Below, piece by piece: positions 39,224 to 62,132 of a stretch of DNA of 64,000 nucleotides. Source of the DNA: Onthophagus taurus (taxonomy: Eukaryota; Arthropoda; Insecta; Coleoptera; Scarabaeidae). Made by a program: the position numbers and the translations under genes. The stretch's first letter is position 1; each line of letters begins with the position of its first letter. The DNA lies in assembly GCF_036711975.1 (NCBI RefSeq), contig NC_091976.1:10664001-10728000 (forward strand), given 5' to 3'. Under the pieces are notes generated by a model. That model was not told the DNA's origin. It was given only the letters and a program-made list of their open reading frames with translations, and searched no databases.

Positions 39224-40398
39224 TTTTAATCTAAATACGAACTCTGCATGCAAATATAACCTCTCAAATATAAAGTCACGGTTGGCGTTCGCGTCTCGAC
39301 ATGTTTTTGAGCAGTCGGGACGCAGCCGTCGACGGCTGGCCGCTGAGCCGTCGGGACGCGCCGCGTCAACGAAATCAATTCCATTGTATGCATTGTATTA
39401 GTGCTTGACTGCCGGACGTCGCGGCGGGCCGCGAACGCTGGACGTCGCAACGAAATTCCACCTTTAGATGGGTCTAATAAATTCGATACATCTTCGATAT
39501 TCGATTTGTTAAGCTTTACTTGATTTAATAAATTAGTGAATTCCGTTTTAATTGCGTCCCCCAACTTTGTTAAACGATCGGAAAGTTGAGTTAAATCACC
39601 AGAGACGTCCGAGTAATTTCGATTAATAACATCTGTGAACTTTGCCGCCGTATCAGTTAATTCGTTGGATATTTCGGTAATTTTTACATCGCCAACATCA
39701 ATTTTAGCATGCAGATTTTTAATATCGGATACCCAGTGCGATTTTAAATTTAAAATCTGATCCTCGATCGCTTCGATTAAAGGTTTTAAATTTCCGGAAA
39801 CTTGCAGATCGATATATTTCTTGCTGGCATCGAATTCATCACGTAGGGTTTGAATCTCCGGCGTAACTTGTTCGGATTTAATTCGCAAATTTTCAACACC
39901 CGATTTTAAATTTAAAATCTGATCCTCGATCGCTTCGATTGAAGGCCTTAAATTTCCGGAAACTTGAAGATCAATATATTTCTTGCTAGCATCAATTTCA
40001 TCACGTAGGGTTTCAATCACCGACGTACCTTTTCTGGATTTATCTCGCAAATCATCAACCTCCGATTTTAAAGAATAATGAAGATTCCTATTAGCTCGCA
40101 TTGTCCTACTTATTGAATCGAGCATACGTTTATACTCCGTATCGTTTGTCTTAAACATCTCATCTACATATGCTTTTATAACGCAATCGTTTTCTAACGA
40201 TGGGCTTTGTACATTACTAAGTTTACGTCCCTGCATATCATAATCCCCAGATGAGGTTAACGGTAATCCAACCGCCCGCTGAGACGTTCCGGCTTCATCA
40301 ATTATTCTACCCCATGAAGATGCGTGCAACGTACGTCCGAATTTATCGATACTGATAATACCACCAACACCACCTCCAAACATGTCTAGCGTAGTTAT

Positions 40399-42229: not shown

Positions 42230-43120
42230 ATGCTCGCTCAAGGTAACACATCAACAGTAGCTTCAATTCGAGGTGGAGGAATTTTAAATTCAATTATCAA
42301 CAAACTCCCCGTAGAGTTACACATTCCCGGATATCAATTTTGCGGGCCCGGAACAAAGTTGGATAAACGCTTGGCACGAGGTGAAAAAGGCATAAATCCG
42401 TTAGATCGCGCCTGTAGAGAACACGATATAGCCTATAGGGATAATAAAACATTAGATCAACGTCACGAGGCCGATAGGCGTTTAGAGGATACCGCTTGGG
42501 AAAGGGTGAAGGCGAAAGACTCATCACTTGGTGAAAAGGCTTCGGCGTGGTTAGTCACAAACGCTATGAAAGCGAAACGTAAATTAGGCATGGGGCATAA
42601 GCGTAAAGGTGTTGGTGGTAAAAGCCGGCGAAAACGTCGAGGTGGATCATTGAAGTCGAAAAGTGGTGGTGGTGGTGGTAAACAGGTGACCTTTCAAAAG
42701 GGGATAGTTAAGCGTATAGCAAATGATTTACCAAAAAACACCGATAGTTTACGAGAAGCGGCGCGATTGGCGTTGAAAGGTGCTCGCATAGCTGTAAAGT
42801 CTGTAGGCGGAAAGCGAAAAGTTAAAATTCCACGAACAATCCCAATTCCAGTTAAACGAGGAGGAATATTACCACTTTTACCTGCGATATTCGCCGGACT
42901 GTCAGCTCTCAGCGCACTATCCGGAGGCGCGGCCGGAGTCTATAGAGCAGTAAAGAAAACTCAAGAGGCGAAGGATAAAATGAAAGAAGCTGAGCGGCAC
43001 AATAAAGCAATGGAGGACATTGCGATCGGAAAGACGGGGAGTGGTATTTACATTAAAAGGTATAAAAAGGGATTGGGTATATATTTAACGAAGAAGAAGA
43101 AGACTCAAAAAAACTTTTAA
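42230..43120 (+). CDS. PLA2-domain membrane-active virion protein (296 aa)
   Basis: The start is the ATG at 42230. The parvovirus-type PLA2 domain (about residues 30-75) shows the calcium loop YQFCGPGTKL and the catalytic CREHDIAY. A long Lys/Arg-rich middle is followed by a Gly/Ala hydrophobic segment (GILPLLPAIFAGLSALSALSG, about 211-231) like the lytic segments of adenoviral minor proteins. In parvoviruses this PLA2 breaches endosomes, and a like role in entry is inferred. The last codons are CAA AAA AAC TTT TAA, holding a slippery heptamer that may add the protease. Confidence 0.85.
   Translation: MLAQGNTSTVASIRGGGILNSIINKLPVELHIPGYQFCGPGTKLDKRLARGEKGINPLDRACREHDIAYRDNKTLDQRHEADRRLEDTAWERVKAKDSSLGEKASAWLVTNAMKAKRKLGMGHKRKGVGGKSRRKRRGGSLKSKSGGGGGKQVTFQKGIVKRIANDLPKNTDSLREAARLALKGARIAVKSVGGKRKVKIPRTIPIPVKRGGILPLLPAIFAGLSALSALSGGAAGVYRAVKKTQEAKDKMKEAERHNKAMEDIAIGKTGSGIYIKRYKKGLGIYLTKKKKTQKNF
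43108..43114 (+). promoter_or_regulatory. Predicted -1 ribosomal frameshift site A_AAA_AAC (element A)
   Basis: The heptamer is in the correct zero-frame phase (CAA AAA AAC), with the stop codon TAA one codon later. Sliding by -1 enters the protease frame, which has no upstream ATG but conserved residues right after the slip. Element B has the identical heptamer and phase at 57131-57137. I could not verify a downstream pseudoknot. The following GGCTGCTACCCAAGAGACCT is similar in B. Confidence 0.7.
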
Positions 43121-43497
43121 GGCTGCTACCCAAGAGACCTCTAACCAACTTTGATATACTACGTTACGCTAAATCTCTAAATATCCCAAAATTCCGCGGC
43201 GTCTATATGCGAAACGCATTACCAAAAGGGGGCCCTAAAACGGATGAAGCGGCGGTGGTGAATTTAGATGTACAAAGCGGAGATGGAACGCATTGGGTAG
43301 CCTATAGAAAATCCGGTAATAGAGTGTTCTATTTTGATAGTTATGGGGATCTCAAACCCCCCAAAGAACTTTTAAAGTACTTTAAAGACACTCAAATTAT
43401 ATACAACCACGATAATTATCAAAAGGACAATCAGTACAATTGCGGGCATTTATGTATAAAATTCCTACTTCAAACGGGAAACGGGTCATATGTATAA
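43114..43497 (+). CDS. Adenain-type cysteine protease, expressed by -1 frameshift (127 aa portion)
   Basis: Conserved reading begins right after the slippery site (RPLTNFDILRYAKSLNIPKF, RGVYMR). The first ATG in this frame is only at 43207, after the helix needed by adenovirus-type proteases. The catalytic triad is GTHWVAY (His), YFDSYGD (Asp) and YNCGHLC (Cys). The same 127-codon length is found in element B. It cleaves virion precursors in relatives. Fusion to the PLA2 protein would deliver it into particles. An internal start at 43207 remains possible but would give a 96 aa protein lacking the first helix. Confidence 0.75.
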   Translation, partial: LLRLLPKRPLTNFDILRYAKSLNIPKFRGVYMRNALPKGGPKTDEAAVVNLDVQSGDGTHWVAYRKSGNRVFYFDSYGDLKPPKELLKYFKDTQIIYNHDNYQKDNQYNCGHLCIKFLLQTGNGSYV

Positions 43498-44285: not shown

Positions 44286-44506
44286 TGGGATTTATGTTTG
44301 AAACGCCTGGTGGTGGTGGTGGTGGTGGTGGAACCTATCGCCCACCACCACCATCACAACCTACCTTGAAAAAGGGTAAAGGGTATAAATGTAAACGTAA
44401 GAGAACGTCTAGATCAGTCTGCAGAAAGACTTCGTTGCGACCTGACAACGTTCGTTTCCTTCAAGATTTGGGGTACCATGTCAACAAAAAAATTAAACAT
44501 TTATAG
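44285..44506 (+). CDS. Small basic capsid-locus protein (73 aa)
   Basis: Gly-run N-terminus, Pro-rich PPPPSQP, then Lys/Arg-rich KCKRKRTSRSVCRK and the conserved C-terminus TSLRPDNVRFLQDLGYHVNKKIK. The same C-terminus occurs in element B. It overlaps the penton stop by one base and the hexon start by 29 bases. It may be a core or cement peptide, a role inferred from charge and position only. Confidence 0.65.
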   Translation: MGFMFETPGGGGGGGGTYRPPPPSQPTLKKGKGYKCKRKRTSRSVCRKTSLRPDNVRFLQDLGYHVNKKIKHL

Positions 44507-45716
44507 AGATCCTATCGTGGATAATTCCATCGCTAGGGAAGAGGTGCACAGTTACCATCCTTCAACAAATTCGTTTCAAAACAACGATGTGTTCACCATT
44601 GAACTGAACCAAGAAGATGTTTTATTTTCCTTTTTCGAGAGTTATATACGAATTGAGGGTAACTATGTTAAAAAATTGACGGATCCTGCAGATAGCGTAA
44701 GTTTAACGCACAATTTGCCGGCATTTCTATTTGAGTACATCGCATTCGAACATAATGGCGTTGAAATAGAACGTGTTCGTGAACCAGGGCTCACATCGCT
44801 AATTAGAACCCTTCTACACCATAACGATGTGGAATGTAAATCATTGGAAATTGCCGGGTTAAAATGGCCTCCTGAAGGAGCCTTACCCACGGTGGACAGC
44901 GCAAACGATAACTTTGTATTTCAAATCCCACTTGTGCACATTTTTGGATTATTTAGAGACTACAATCAGGTTATGAGAGGTCGTTTCAAGTTTAGGTTTG
45001 TCAGAAGCCGCACAGATTCAAACTGTTTTAAATCTATATCGACTAAAGCCGACCCCAGCACTGCAGAGTTTACCATAAAGACAGTGTCATTACTGGCGAA
45101 GCATGTTTATCCCAGTCCATCGATAAAGATTAAACTTTTGGATGGGCTAAATAAAAATTCGAATATAGCCGTACCTTTTCGTAAATGGACGTTTTATGAA
45201 TTGCCATCTATGAGACGGGGGAATAAAGAGATTTGGCCTGTTACATCAACTACTAACAGGGGTAGACCGCAATATGTTATAGTGGCATTCCAAACCAATC
45301 GAAAGGATCAGCCGAAATCTGATTGTACGCTGTTTGACCACTTGAACATTATAGATCTTAAAGTCTATTTAAATTCATATTCCTACCCATTCGAGTCTAT
45401 GAATTTGGATTTTACGAAGGAAAACTACGTTGAACTATATAAAATGTATACGGAATTTCAATCATACATTTGGGAATCTAACCGAAAACAACCGATAATG
45501 GATTTCAACAGTTTCAAGAAAAGACCTCTATTCGTAATTGATACCACAAAGAATAATGATGAGGAGGCAGCGCCATCTGCATCATGTGAAGTGCGGCTTG
45601 AAATTCAGAGTGATAAAGATTTTCCCGCCAACACGAAGGCATACTGTATCCTAATACAGGAATCTATGTATACCTATAAGCCGCTGAGTGGGGAGGTCTC
45701 AATCGTTATTAATTGA
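44478..45716 (+). CDS. Hexon-like major capsid protein (412 aa)
   Basis: Starts STKKLNIYRDPIVDNSIAR. Conserved parts: YHPSTNSFQNNDVFTIEL, FLFEYIAFEHNGVEIERVRE, RGRFKFRFVRSRTDSNC and YPFESMNLDF. It resembles the F54H12.2-like family seen in Polinton-type loci, taken as double-jelly-roll capsid protein. 412 residues is enough for that fold though shorter than many Polinton hexons. It is the most conserved protein between A and B. It is assigned as major capsid by size, position after penton, and family resemblance. Confidence 0.7.
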   Translation: MSTKKLNIYRDPIVDNSIAREEVHSYHPSTNSFQNNDVFTIELNQEDVLFSFFESYIRIEGNYVKKLTDPADSVSLTHNLPAFLFEYIAFEHNGVEIERVREPGLTSLIRTLLHHNDVECKSLEIAGLKWPPEGALPTVDSANDNFVFQIPLVHIFGLFRDYNQVMRGRFKFRFVRSRTDSNCFKSISTKADPSTAEFTIKTVSLLAKHVYPSPSIKIKLLDGLNKNSNIAVPFRKWTFYELPSMRRGNKEIWPVTSTTNRGRPQYVIVAFQTNRKDQPKSDCTLFDHLNIIDLKVYLNSYSYPFESMNLDFTKENYVELYKMYTEFQSYIWESNRKQPIMDFNSFKKRPLFVIDTTKNNDEEAAPSASCEVRLEIQSDKDFPANTKAYCILIQESMYTYKPLSGEVSIVIN

Positions 45717-46341: not shown

Positions 46342-48012
46342 ATGCATTCAGTGTCTGACCTCCATCACGCAAACATGTACATTGCGAGAGTTATTTTAGT
46401 ATATACGCTCTGGGCGCTTCCAATACGAATTTTAATGGGAGATTTGATGTACGATAGGGATATGGAAATCTATAAATATCTCAAAGCATTTGGATATTTA
46501 AATGGGAATGTGAGCGGTTTACATCATCATCGTCATCAGATGGAATATACAACAACAACAACAACAACAACAATGACGGAAGGGTTACGTAAATTGCAGG
46601 AATATTTTCACCTGCCAGTATCGGGTGAAGTTGATTTTAAAACTTTGGATTTGATTGGTAAACCAAGATGTGGGAATAAAGACTTGGAAGACATATCAGT
46701 AGACGCTAAACGTACGATACATCGAAAGTGGGGGATCCCAATAGTTAAATGGGCCATCTATAATAAATATCCAGATGGCTTTCCCAATATCGTTGAAAGG
46801 GCATTTGCGGTTTGGGCTAAGCATATAGATTTAAAGTTTCAGAGCTCGTTTACCGACGTCAACATTCTAATCGGGTTTAAAGGTTACAACCATACGTGCA
46901 TAAGGAACGTTGGATCAATGTGTGGTAGTACATTCAAAAATGGGATTTTAGCTCACGCATACTATCCTTATATTAATGGGCGTAATGTTGAAATCCATAT
47001 AAATTCAGATTTAGAGTTTGATTTATCCAACTCTACAGTAGATGGGAAATATAACCTATTTTTGGTAATGGTGCATGAAATTGGACATTCCTTAGGTTTA
47101 ATGCATCGAGTTGAACTCGATTCCATCATGCATCCCAACTATGGTAACATGAGAATTGAGGATTTCAAGTTGAATAGCAGAGATATTGTGGCAATTCAAG
47201 CTATATATGGTAGACCCAAATTGTATACATCATCGACTGTTTCAAGTCACGTTACATCATCATATAGGACCACGACGAGTCGGTCTACGACAAATCCTGC
47301 CGTTCAACCCTCACCCTTTAGAGACGTTTGCGATGTGGATTCAAAGTTTTCCGGTTTTTTGATTCACTATCAAACCATGTACGTGTTTTACAAACAATGG
47401 GTTTGGTTAATAGATTTAAAGTCTAAACGACCTAAACAACCCAATCCTATAGACATAAATGATTGGCTGCCGACTTTGAGGAATGTTTTTCGTACTGTAG
47501 ACTATAGTTATAAAGTGTCTATCTCGCCTATAGGTGACCTTATACTTATAATGGAAAATGCAATATACAGAATTGATTTTAAGAGTATGAATGTGCGGTC
47601 TGTGTGGCCGTTCACTTCCACCGAGTTAGGGTTTAATAATTTTACTCGAGTTAACGGGATAGTTACAAGCAATTACGGTTTACCTTACATATTTTTCGAT
47701 GATATGTACGCAATTCAAGTGGATTTTAATTACTTTAGAAAGGAGAGAGTTATAGTTTCGATTGGTGAACTTTTTCCGGGAATCCCAACTTCTTTCAATG
47801 GGATTTACAAAGGTTCCGACGGCATATTTAATTTCTTTGTTGGCGATCGAATCCTCCAATACGATGAATATTTAAAGGAGGTTGTAGGCACCTCTGACAA
47901 GAGTCTATCGATATTAGGGATAACTTGCCCCTATATATCAATTTTAGATCAATTGAAATCTCTCCTCTCAACAATCATTTCAACCAATCTCTCAATTCCC
48001 ATAAATTATTGA
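46342..48012 (+). CDS. Secreted matrix metalloproteinase (matrixin) with prodomain and hemopexin-like tail
   Basis: The second Met (46375, MYIARVILVYTLW) gives a better signal peptide than the first. A peptidoglycan-binding-like prodomain (EGLRKLQEYFHLPVSGEVD) leads to the cysteine switch KPRCGNKD (about residue 108), then the zinc site HEIGHSLGLMH (about 245) with Met-turn SIMHP. A Ser/Thr-rich linker and hemopexin-like repeats follow (VCDVDSKFSGF, YKQWVWLID). It would degrade extracellular matrix. In baculoviruses a viral MMP aids spread, and a similar role here is inference. Last gene of element A. Confidence 0.85.
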   Translation: MHSVSDLHHANMYIARVILVYTLWALPIRILMGDLMYDRDMEIYKYLKAFGYLNGNVSGLHHHRHQMEYTTTTTTTTMTEGLRKLQEYFHLPVSGEVDFKTLDLIGKPRCGNKDLEDISVDAKRTIHRKWGIPIVKWAIYNKYPDGFPNIVERAFAVWAKHIDLKFQSSFTDVNILIGFKGYNHTCIRNVGSMCGSTFKNGILAHAYYPYINGRNVEIHINSDLEFDLSNSTVDGKYNLFLVMVHEIGHSLGLMHRVELDSIMHPNYGNMRIEDFKLNSRDIVAIQAIYGRPKLYTSSTVSSHVTSSYRTTTSRSTTNPAVQPSPFRDVCDVDSKFSGFLIHYQTMYVFYKQWVWLIDLKSKRPKQPNPIDINDWLPTLRNVFRTVDYSYKVSISPIGDLILIMENAIYRIDFKSMNVRSVWPFTSTELGFNNFTRVNGIVTSNYGLPYIFFDDMYAIQVDFNYFRKERVIVSIGELFPGIPTSFNGIYKGSDGIFNFFVGDRILQYDEYLKEVVGTSDKSLSILGITCPYISILDQLKSLLSTIISTNLSIPINY

Positions 48013-55394: not shown

Positions 55395-56105
55395 TTAGTC
55401 TAGGTGGAGAAATTTATCCATTCCCATACGGTATCTACCATTTTTAATTTCAAAATCCTTCATAATAATCATCGGTGTGTACGGCCCACCATCATTCCAA
55501 CACCGAATGCAAACCTCTTTGAAAACATCAAATTTCATATCGGTGTTAACGTGTTCATCATATACATGTTTCAAATTAAGCTCATCCTGTTTGAATAACA
55601 TTAAAACATTAGCGTTATCCCTAATTAAATGTTTAGGTATTCTCGTATAAGTTTGTGTAAGATAAAATGAATCAATGTTTTTATGTCCACCCATACAAAA
55701 AAACGCTCGAATCCTGTCTTGTTTATCACACGCTACGTCATCAAATATAAAGATTGAGTTCTCTTTAGCTTCAGCTGGATCGACAACTGATTCATTATCT
55801 GCAAAGCGATAAAGCCCCACATCTGGTAGCCGTTTTAAAACCTTTTCTAACAATTCATATTTCGGTTGATGTAGTGATTTAGAATAGATGTAAATGTTTT
55901 CAAATTTTAAACCATTTATATCGAAAATAAGATTTAGCATTAAATTTGTTTTCCCACATCCGCTTGGACCGCATACTATCGCCCGCAAACTATTCGGCAT
56001 GAGCTCACCATGACGTTGACGTCGATCGGATGTAGATTGAGTCATCACCAGCCGATCTAGATCGATGGATGACATAGACAGCGATGGATGCTTTACAATG
56101 CGCAT
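55395..56105 (-). CDS. Genome-packaging ATPase (FtsK/HerA type, 236 aa)
   Basis: The start at 56105 (MRIVKHPSLSMSS) matches element A; the open frame extends eight codons further upstream. Walker A GPSGCGKTNLMLNL and Walker B NSIFIFDDVACDKQ are intact, with LTQTYTRIPKHLIRDNAN downstream. Full length for the family. Confidence 0.9.
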   Translation of the reverse strand: MRIVKHPSLSMSSIDLDRLVMTQSTSDRRQRHGELMPNSLRAIVCGPSGCGKTNLMLNLIFDINGLKFENIYIYSKSLHQPKYELLEKVLKRLPDVGLYRFADNESVVDPAEAKENSIFIFDDVACDKQDRIRAFFCMGGHKNIDSFYLTQTYTRIPKHLIRDNANVLMLFKQDELNLKHVYDEHVNTDMKFDVFKEVCIRCWNDGGPYTPMIIMKDFEIKNGRYRMGMDKFLHLD

Positions 56106-56183: not shown

Positions 56184-57143
56184 ATGTTCATACGTGATAA
56201 CAGCATCATATCATCACCTACAACGTTAGGAGGAGGAGGTGGTTTTAATACGCTTATCAACAAACTACCAATCGAGTTACACGTTCCAGGCTATCAATTT
56301 TGTGGACCGGGCACAAAATTAAAGAAGCGTCTAGCACGTGGGGATACTGGTATTAACCCGCTAGATCGTGCTTGTAGAGAACACGATATAGCGTATTCTA
56401 ATAGTAATACTTTAGATCGACGTCACGAAGCCGATAAGCGTTTGGAGGAAAACGCTTGGGAAAGAGTTAAGGCTAAAGACTCAACGTTTGGTGAAAAGGC
56501 ATCAGCTTGGATGGTTACAAACGTTATGAAAGCAAAACGAAAATTAGGCCTCGGCCATAAAAGGCGGAGTCGTCGTCAAACTAAACCAAAACCGCCGTCA
56601 ACGGGCGTCTTAAAAAGAAAAATTTCGAAGAAAAAAAAACGATGTGAAAAAGAAAATATAATTCGAGGAGTAGAAAAAGGAGGAGCTTTAAAATATAAAT
56701 CTAATAAACCGCTAGCATTTAAACGCACGCTTGTAAACCGCATAGTTAAAGATCTACCAAAATCTACTGATAATTTACGGGAAGCAGCTCAATTAGCGCT
56801 AAAGAGCGCTCGTATAGCCGTGAAAACTGTTGGTGGTAGGAAAAAAATAAAAATCCCTCGAGCAATACCGTTACCGATTAAAAGGGGAGGTATTCTTCCA
56901 ATTTTACCTGCCATATTTGCTGGGCTTTCAGCCCTCGGAGCATTATCCGGTGGTACGGCAGGAGTGTATCGGGCTATAAAGAGTGGGCAGGAGGCTAAAG
57001 AGAAATTAGAAGAGGCTGAACGGCATAATAAACAGATGGAAGCTATCGCAATAGGTAAATCGGGTAATGGTCTCTACATCAAGAAATATAAAAAAGGATT
57101 GGGTTTATATTTAAGTAAAAAAAAGAAACAAAAAAACTTGTAG
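56184..57143 (+). CDS. PLA2-domain membrane-active virion protein (319 aa)
   Basis: The start is the ATG at 56184 (MFIRDNSIIS); the frame is open upstream but overlaps the ATPase start. The PLA2 domain has YQFCGPGTKLKKRLARGDTG and CREHDIAYSN. The basic middle is longer than in A (KRKISKKKKRCEKEN). The hydrophobic segment is GGILPILPAIFAGLSALGAL. It ends CAA AAA AAC TTG TAG with the same slippery heptamer as A. Entry-related membrane lysis is inferred from the parvoviral and adenoviral parallels. Confidence 0.85.
   Translation: MFIRDNSIISSPTTLGGGGGFNTLINKLPIELHVPGYQFCGPGTKLKKRLARGDTGINPLDRACREHDIAYSNSNTLDRRHEADKRLEENAWERVKAKDSTFGEKASAWMVTNVMKAKRKLGLGHKRRSRRQTKPKPPSTGVLKRKISKKKKRCEKENIIRGVEKGGALKYKSNKPLAFKRTLVNRIVKDLPKSTDNLREAAQLALKSARIAVKTVGGRKKIKIPRAIPLPIKRGGILPILPAIFAGLSALGALSGGTAGVYRAIKSGQEAKEKLEEAERHNKQMEAIAIGKSGNGLYIKKYKKGLGLYLSKKKKQKNL
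57131..57137 (+). promoter_or_regulatory. Predicted -1 ribosomal frameshift site A_AAA_AAC (element B)
   Basis: Identical heptamer, phase and distance to the stop codon (one codon between) as at 43108-43114, although neighbouring codons differ. This conservation is the main support. Confidence 0.7.
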
Positions 57144-57520
57144 ATAGGCTACCCAACAGACCTCTAACAAATCTTGATATAATTCAATTCGTTAAAGCTC
57201 TAAAAATTTCAAATTTTCGCGGTGTATTTATGCGGAATGAATTACCTAAGAGCGGTCCTAAATATAAGGAATCAGCAGTTATAAATTTAGATGATCGAAA
57301 CGGTCGCGGAACCCATTGGGTAGCCTATAAAAAGAATGGTAATCAAGCGTTGTACTTCGACAGCTATGGCGATCTTAAACCTCCCTTTGAACTACTGAAT
57401 TATTTGAAAAATTGTCGAATTGTGTACAATCATGAAAATTTTCAAAAAGAGAACCCCTTTAACTGTGGACATTTATGTATAAATTTCCTGTTAAACACCG
57501 AAAACTCATCATTTGATTAA
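57137..57520 (+). CDS. Adenain-type cysteine protease, expressed by -1 frameshift (127 aa portion)
   Basis: After the slip the frame reads RPLTNLDIIQFVKALKISNF then RGVFMRNELPK. No ATG precedes 57230. Triad: GTHWVAY (His), YFDSYGD (Asp), FNCGHLC (Cys). Same length as in A. The penton start follows two bases after its stop. It would mature virion proteins. Confidence 0.75.
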   Translation, partial: LVDRLPNRPLTNLDIIQFVKALKISNFRGVFMRNELPKSGPKYKESAVINLDDRNGRGTHWVAYKKNGNQALYFDSYGDLKPPFELLNYLKNCRIVYNHENFQKENPFNCGHLCINFLLNTENSSFD

Positions 57521-60503: not shown

Positions 60504-62132
60504 ATGAAGGTATTATTGTTGATTCTTTGGATGTATATGTTAAGACATATCACGGGGTTGCTAACCGAGCATGAAGTGGAAATTTATAATATTCTAGATA
60601 AGTATGGTTATATCAGACAAGATGCTAATGCTGGTACTGGTAAAATAAGCGTGCATAAAACTGAGAATGAAATGTTGAGGGATGGTATAAATAATTTCCA
60701 AAAATATTTTAATCTCCCAATCACAGGACAAGCAAATTTTGACACCTTGGAGTTACTTTGGACGCCTAGATGTGGTAATGTGGATTTATTCGAAAATTTA
60801 AGTTCCAAACCAATCACGACTCGAAGATGGAATCTATCAACACTTAGATGGAATGTATACACATCTTCATATCCCGGTTTTACAACCGTGGTGGAAAGAG
60901 CCTTTAACGTTTGGTCTAAATACATTAACGTAAAGTTTGAAAGGACGTTTGCGGGCGCTAATATTTTAATAGGTTTCCTATCGAAAAATCATACGTGTAT
61001 ACGAAATTCAACGATATATTGTCGGAGTTCTTTAGATGGTAAAGGGCGCGTGTTAGCTCACGCATACTATCCACATATTAAAAAATCCAAAGTTGAAATT
61101 CATGTAGATTTAGATGAAGATTGGGATATAACCAATACCACAATAGAAGGTAAACATAACCTATTTCTAGTTATGGTGCATGAAATAGGGCACGCCTTAG
61201 GATTACATCATAATGTACGACTCAACTCGGTGATGCATCCGATTTATGGTAGCATAAATATTGAAAATTTCACGTTAAGTCGTGAAGATATTTATAATAT
61301 ACAACAATTATATGGAAATTCAACAGAAAGTGTAACCACCACTGTTAATCCAACACCTACGTTAAATACAACACCCCCCGCCTATATTACACATTCCCTA
61401 ACATCTACATCTTCAACACCAACATTGTCGAATCTAGCACACGCGGAGGTATGTGATGTGGACAATAAGTTTTCAGGATTTTTAATTTACAATAAACAAA
61501 TTTATGTATTCTATAAACAATGGGTTTGGTTAATCGATCTAAAAACAAAAAAACCAATTTGGTCTAAACCTGTAAACATTGTGGATTGGATACGTCCTTT
61601 AAGAGGGGTTTTAAAAGAGGATGATGATTATGTAGTTTCGATAGGTCCTAACGGTCAATTTATATTTATCATACGTGATACAATCTATATAATTGAAATT
61701 GCTAGTATAACCATACGCTATAAATGGAAATTTTCAGAAACTGATTTAGGTTTAAATGATCAATCTAAGGTTAGAGGTGTTGTAACGAGTAATTATGGAT
61801 TAACATATATATTTTTTGATGATATTTATGCGATTGGGGTGGATGAGTCATTTTACAATAGAAACAAAATTATTACATCAGTTGTCGATCTATTTCCTGG
61901 GATGCCAACGAAATTTAATGGAGTATACAAAACACCTGATGGTTTATTGAATTTCATCGTTGGAGATAAAATTATTCGTTATGATGAATATTTAAAGGAA
62001 GTTACAGATAGTTTAGATAAAAGTTTATTTATTTTAGGTATATCTTGCCCCTATAAATCTCTATTAGATCAACTTAAATATGTATTATCTGCGATCATTT
62101 CATACAAACTACCAATTCCCGCTGAATATTAA
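60504..62132 (+). CDS. Secreted matrix metalloproteinase (matrixin) with prodomain and hemopexin-like tail (542 aa)
   Basis: Signal peptide MKVLLLILWMYMLRHITGLL. The prodomain (INNFQKYFNLPITGQANFD) leads to the cysteine switch TPRCGNVD, then zinc site HEIGHALGLHH with Met-turn SVMHP. A Thr/Pro linker and hemopexin-like repeats follow (VCDVDNKFSGF, YKQWVWLID, GLTYIFFDDIYAIGV). Full MMP layout, without a furin site that I can see. It should be made as a zymogen in the secretory route. Matched in position by element A, so it is standing cargo, not a chance capture. Confidence 0.85.
   Translation: MKVLLLILWMYMLRHITGLLTEHEVEIYNILDKYGYIRQDANAGTGKISVHKTENEMLRDGINNFQKYFNLPITGQANFDTLELLWTPRCGNVDLFENLSSKPITTRRWNLSTLRWNVYTSSYPGFTTVVERAFNVWSKYINVKFERTFAGANILIGFLSKNHTCIRNSTIYCRSSLDGKGRVLAHAYYPHIKKSKVEIHVDLDEDWDITNTTIEGKHNLFLVMVHEIGHALGLHHNVRLNSVMHPIYGSINIENFTLSREDIYNIQQLYGNSTESVTTTVNPTPTLNTTPPAYITHSLTSTSSTPTLSNLAHAEVCDVDNKFSGFLIYNKQIYVFYKQWVWLIDLKTKKPIWSKPVNIVDWIRPLRGVLKEDDDYVVSIGPNGQFIFIIRDTIYIIEIASITIRYKWKFSETDLGLNDQSKVRGVVTSNYGLTYIFFDDIYAIGVDESFYNRNKIITSVVDLFPGMPTKFNGVYKTPDGLLNFIVGDKIIRYDEYLKEVTDSLDKSLFILGISCPYKSLLDQLKYVLSAIISYKLPIPAEY

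Follow-up and report, generated by a model that had tools for sequence, protein, structure and literature searches.

The 64,000-nucleotide (nt) window of the Onthophagus taurus genome analysed here (NC_091976.1, positions 10,664,001 to 10,728,000) contains two Polinton-type elements, and in both of them an in-phase A_AAA_AAC heptamer lies at the junction between the reading frame of a phospholipase A2 (PLA2)-domain protein and the frame of an adenain-like protease. Both heptamers stand in X_XXY_YYZ phase, which the original prediction had claimed as the right one for -1 slippage, in the region where the two frames, standing in -1 relation, overlap. Judging from sequence comparisons, we consider it likely that a -1 ribosomal frameshift at the heptamer yields a minor PLA2-protease fusion. 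The junctions consist of the following features.

42230..43120, + strand: PLA2-domain protein (Pfam PF08398), copy 1, zero frame, first ATG to TAA
43066..43120, + strand: copy 1, 55 nt shared by the PLA2 frame and the open -1 frame
43108..43114, + strand: slippery heptamer A_AAA_AAC, copy 1 (from sequence, phase and conservation)
43118..43120, + strand: PLA2 stop TAA, copy 1, one codon past the heptamer
43114..43497, + strand: adenain-like protease, -1 frame, copy 1, 127 codons and a stop; earliest Met at 43207
56184..57143, + strand: PLA2-domain protein (Pfam PF08398), copy 2, zero frame, from the Met judged to be the likely start
57119..57143, + strand: copy 2, 25 nt shared by the PLA2 frame and the open -1 frame
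57131..57137, + strand: slippery heptamer A_AAA_AAC, copy 2 (from sequence and phase)
57141..57143, + strand: PLA2 stop TAG, copy 2
57137..57520, + strand: adenain-like protease, -1 frame, copy 2, 127 codons and a stop; earliest Met at 57230

The PLA2 frame ends with CAA AAA AAC TTT TAA in copy 1 (43106-43120) and with CAA AAA AAC TTG TAG in copy 2 (57129-57143), just as it had been read in the original prediction. The -1 frame is indeed the protease frame, open from 43066 to the stop at 43497 in copy 1 and from 57119 to 57520 in copy 2. This frame had also been said to lack an ATG for about 30 codons and to give protease portions of 127 codons; the first in-frame Met proved to be codon 32 after the slip, and the length after the slip 127 codons, in both copies. 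An Onthophagus taurus database protein of 296 residues matches the PLA2 protein of copy 1 at 99%, beginning at the Met of 42230, and the open frame of copy 2 has an additional ATG farther 5', at 56088.

According to the proposed mechanism, ribosomes would translate the PLA2/core-like protein first. Upon reaching A_AAA_AAC, or T_TTT_TTA in one family, often 0-2 codons short of the zero-frame stop, a minority of them would slip by -1 and continue in the protease frame. One mRNA would then give two products, an abundant basic-tailed PLA2 protein and a small amount of a fusion with a C-terminal adenain-type cysteine protease. As in retroviral Gag-Pro, such a tether would carry the protease into the capsid during assembly, at a low and fixed ratio, and the protease would presumably be incorporated into the virion and released later.

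Conservation of the heptamer

Three protease searches of the genome each gave 150 scored places, and from these lists 91 distinct loci were picked to span families, not randomly; a PLA2 search gave 159 matches. The window copies 1 and 2 are denoted W1 and W2, of which W1 is L004 and was counted once; L091-L097 stand outside the 91, L092 being the place of L040 and L093-L097 having been added later. An in-phase A_AAA_AAC was found in 57/91 loci and an in-phase T_TTT_TTA in another 16/91, and in every one of these the protease stands in -1 relation. A heptamer is therefore carried by 73 of the 76 loci in -1 relation, the exceptions within the stretch examined being L040, L077 and L086; L077 has T_TTT_TTA in phase, but a stop lies within its -1 frame. 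Six of the 91 loci show another frame relation and nine have no PLA2-tail frame beside the protease, which for L067 and L085 says nothing because the upstream sequence is absent from the extracts. Several copies are decayed (L015, L033, L034, L078, L079, L080 and L086). At L014, L042 and L063 an indel has brought the PLA2 tail and the protease together in a single open frame; this natural in-frame fusion is perhaps only decay. In L050, from a divergent lineage, the A run of the junction is very long and the two frames stand in a different relation.

Grouping the proteases at 85% identity resulted in 12 clusters, 31-80% identical among themselves, which correspond to about 10 lineages because two of them, L035 and L041, are damaged or partial sequences related to the L016 and W1 clusters; L050 and L065, both with other frame relations, fall outside the clusters. 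The original prediction had called for an alignment of the junction, and within this one genome the heptamer and its phase are conserved in 11 of the 12 clusters, always within a short overlap. The distance from A_AAA_AAC to the PLA2 stop is five codons in the L038 cluster and 0 or 1 in the other A_AAA_AAC clusters, and the site of the L044 cluster reads GTT TTT TTA with the stop 13-16 codons farther.

The heptamer is conserved at the nucleotide level beyond the protein. In eight A_AAA_AAC lineages compared, the residue before Lys-Asn is Q, R, S or T, yet its codon ends in A in 8/8, and Lys-Asn itself is encoded by AAA AAC in 8/8. Calculated from codon usage in the PLA2 frames concerned, the product of probabilities for NNA AAA AAC in all eight is 10^-7.15, an optimistic value because the lineages are related. 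Only 1 of 11 other Lys-Asn pairs in these frames is a heptamer, and elsewhere in the PLA2 frames of the 12 cluster representatives A_AAA_AAC or T_TTT_TTA occurs in phase 4 times in 2560 codons.

A similar tail was found at the protein level in other insects. Among the 119 best other homologues (of 2286) of the copy 1 PLA2 protein, 115 end with KN plus 0-2 residues, as do 108 of the 119 best homologues (of 607) of the L057 PLA2 protein, making 223/238 in the pooled sets; at least three of the entries (P0003, P0242 and P0248) come from O. taurus. In 0/223 is KN preceded by a residue that has no NNA codon, against a background of 23% and 26% over the 19 residues upstream. For the protease, 24 of the 120 best homologues (of 382) were parsed as starting at least six residues before the LP motif (P0222 is mis-parsed), and 16 of these 24 models read KKL there, as the -1 frame of A_AAA_AAC T would. 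The protease and PLA2 queries gave no usable locus in IMG/VR, where the single match (L091), a short PLA2-like stretch in a phage-like contig, was excluded; no relatives of either were found in GTDB contigs or among plasmids and phages.

The PLA2 proteins of the window pass the Pfam cut-off of PF08398 (viral PLA2; 47.7 bits for copy 1 and 44.7 bits for copy 2 against 23.9), and this domain was not found in the upstream proteins of L044 or L071. L044, L071 and their relatives form a family whose upstream proteins, about 150 residues long, retain the C-terminal module alone, and this is the family using T_TTT_TTA. In the L044 cluster the upstream protein is an open frame of 147-152 residues, in which the C-terminal module was found and the PLA2 domain was not detected. 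As one family without a detectable PLA2 domain uses T_TTT_TTA, what stays constant as the partner of the protease may be not PLA2 but the basic/hydrophobic module at the C-terminus. The Gag-Pro-like tether to a virion protein put forward in the original prediction is supported by the heptamer, its phase, the missing start codon and the selection described below, although its partner may need to be redefined in this way. The module matches adenovirus protein X (PF05829) weakly in 10/20 homologues (best E 0.046, below threshold), with 13.5 bits for L057 against a cut-off of 25, which is a resemblance only. An AlphaFold2 model of the PLA2 protein was poor (predicted local distance difference test, pLDDT, 63.9; predicted template modelling score, pTM, 0.37) and was left unused.

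The protease frame after the predicted slip

No ATG was found in any frame between the slip and the first helix of the protease in the 11/11 heptamer representatives. The 31 Met-less codons after the slip are under purifying selection in the protease frame. Five sequences (W1, W2, L016, L021 and L031) were compared, and the nonsynonymous proportion (pN) in that frame is below the synonymous one (pS) in 10/10 pairs, with pN > pS in 7/10 and 9/10 pairs for the other two frames of the same region. Variable sites downstream of the slip number 14, 8 and 25 of 38 at codon positions 1, 2 and 3 of the protease frame, respectively; the corresponding upstream counts (15/19, 15/19 and 18/20) are uninformative because the stack was ungapped. 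The earlier observation that family residues are kept from just after the slip is thus matched by selection on the protein there.

The protease has the adenovirus proteinase fold (adenain / peptidase C5). Among 48 protease sequences H60, Q103 and C110 are invariant and D75 is conserved in at least 90%, in the His, acid, Gln, Cys order of that family, and we take these four to be the catalytic residues. The scores against PF00770 are 13.3 and 15.4 bits, below the cut-off of 21.3; the protease is therefore an adenain relative by fold and not a member by the Pfam threshold. A PHROGs search gave no protease match, and a sequence search of the PDB gave weak matches only. Residue 1 of the adenovirus proteinase aligns 7-8 residues past the slip, indicating that the whole protease domain lies inside the slip product. 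Initiation at the first in-frame Met would leave out the first helix and the greater part of strand one.

Weighing the proposed frameshift

Several observations weigh against the proposed ribosomal slippage. L048 and L052 carry, in addition to the heptamer, a protease-frame ATG between the slip and the helix, which in L052 is 6 nt past the PLA2 stop. The original prediction had named, as evidence against it, relatives that have no slippery site but carry an in-frame ATG ahead of the helix. The L040 cluster is such a family, with no heptamer and an ATG overlapping the PLA2 stop (CAATGA) in both copies (L040 and L093); the 11 heptamer representatives are free of ATG between the slip and the helix. 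Outside the O. taurus genome the heptamer was deduced from protein tails only, not from DNA; the preference for S, Q, P or T before KN could be a protein-level one, and terminal KN is missing in 15/238 homologues, among them a Tribolium model that is fused and proteins ending in, for example, PKKYR or PSKRYR. In addition, 61 of the 120 best predicted proteases start with M at most nine residues before a loosely defined [PA]L motif.

A downstream stimulatory structure is usual at -1 frameshift sites, but not always required. Folding downstream of the window heptamers was unremarkable (z of +1.7, +0.8 and +1.35 for W1 and of -0.6, +0.4 and -1.0 for W2), and no local stem or pseudoknot is common to the representatives; both results also count against slippage. 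Strong folds were found in L038 (a hairpin, z -5.0) and L051 (a long stem, z -4.0 over 90 nt). The pseudoknot that the original prediction had suggested looking for did not emerge as a conserved structure, as an H-type candidate was found in L031 alone of the 11 representatives and was matched by 1/100 shuffles.

A free protease could instead be made by termination-reinitiation or from its own AUG or near-cognate start just past the PLA2 stop, with the A run incidental or aiding reinitiation. The CAATGA overlap of L040 and L093 without a heptamer and the ATG of L052 fit such a start, but six other loci of the L051 cluster have no Met at that spot. Own starts or reinitiation are possible in the M-starting lineages elsewhere, as the start codon behind the M (ATG, GTG or TTG) cannot be read from the database entries. 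However, with an ATG between the slip and the helix in none (0/11) of the heptamer representatives, this explanation is unlikely: reinitiation requires no seven-base word in a fixed phase, and it leaves unexplained the swap to T_TTT_TTA with a stop 13-16 codons away.

Slippage of RNA polymerase on the A or T run would give a mixed mRNA pool and the same fusion without ribosomal slippage. Both versions of the site are homopolymer runs, and the much longer A run of L050, where the frames stand in another relation, also fits; but the runs are just 6-7 bases in the other lineages, and the codon phase, for which the polymerase would have no need, is identical in 11/11 heptamer clusters, making this explanation very improbable. 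The chance that an intron or a separate 5' exon supplies the protease start appears slightly slimmer still. AG dinucleotides lie between the slip and the helix in 10/11 representatives but not in L051, and a splice junction accounts for neither the heptamer nor its phase; in addition, the genes of Polintons, at least of intact vertebrate elements, are generally said to lack introns (PMC8097293). Finally, a dead protease frame, with the heptamer a relic of shared ancestry, would agree with the decayed copies, but is hardly credible given the open frames, pN < pS in 10/10 pairs and the retention of the heptamer among clusters 31-80% identical.

Element context, known systems and significance

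The two elements lie about 14 kb apart, and each has the gene order PLA2-domain gene, adenain-like protease, minor-capsid-like gene and double-jelly-roll (DJR) capsid gene; 44478-45716 was identified as a DJR domain by Pfam search (E 1.6e-62). The elements also contain a packaging-ATPase-like gene (Pox_A32) on the opposite strand and an integrase with rve and chromodomain. A matrixin-type metalloprotease adjoins the capsid genes in each Polinton (46342-48012 and 60504-62132, + strand; Peptidase_M10 E 2.8e-28 and 1.3e-34), both with a peptidoglycan-binding-like domain. No open frame listed in the window (1-64000) exceeds 574 residues, which means that an intact long frame for DNA polymerase B was not seen there, and copy 2 may extend beyond the window end. 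A tandem duplication of 162 nt, 87% identical, occupies 39739-40062 within a coiled-coil-like gene of copy 1 (39226-40383, minus strand).

A_AAA_AAC and U_UUU_UUA are classic retroviral Gag-Pro frameshift sites. Similar to Gag-Pro, the Polinton junction would combine these slippery words with a maturation protease joined to a structural protein; it differs in that an adenovirus-type cysteine protease, a PLA2 protein and a DNA element take the place of retroelement Gag and aspartic protease, and in that no conserved stimulator was found. By analogy, the arrangement would work like Gag-Pro without being Gag-Pro. In adenovirus the protease and its cofactor peptide come from separate genes, whereas the Polinton protease would extend another presumed virion protein at its C-terminus. 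The human immunodeficiency virus 1 (HIV-1) site is U_UUU_UUA (PMC4373837).

The original prediction knew of no description of this arrangement for Polintons. Searches of the open literature revealed no account of such a PLA2-protease frameshift for Polintons; they covered portions of PMC11071296, PMC8363768, PMC10120064, PMC8097293, PMC5803895, PMC4061559 and PMC12567637, a coverage that leaves out the possibly relevant founding adintovirus paper (PMC8502044). The novelty is narrowed by one sentence of PMC11071296, which mentions potential hexon-adenain ('Hexain') fusions of adintoviruses in a paragraph on predicted -1 slippery sites in the adintovirus penton. The kind of virus and the enzyme are the same there, and the predicted slippery arrangement of the penton is likened to these fusions, but the partner is the major capsid protein and not a PLA2/core-like protein, and the section concerned gives no site, conservation or selection test, whereas here the heptamer is followed across families. 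The Spodoptera Maverick genes of PMC5803895 include the same pair, a PLA2-domain CAP and an adenain-like PRO, taken as separate open reading frames with a frameshift between them unmentioned in the part covered.

Polintons are considered viruses, though particles are unobserved at least for vertebrate elements (PMC8097293). An element that forms virions would need a fixed ratio of structural protein to protease, which frameshifting would set, and the frameshift would explain why insect Polinton proteases have missing N-termini in automatic annotation. More tentatively, and with considerable doubt, -1 frameshifting onto a core/membrane protein might be the way in which insect Polintons in general package the maturation protease, with slippery heptamers that can replace one another and no dependence on the PLA2 domain. 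The adenovirus scheme, in which a core-protein peptide activates a separate proteinase, could then be the split form derived from an ancestral tethered enzyme. If the proposed frameshift is true, Gag-Pro-like protease delivery would extend to animal double-stranded DNA elements.
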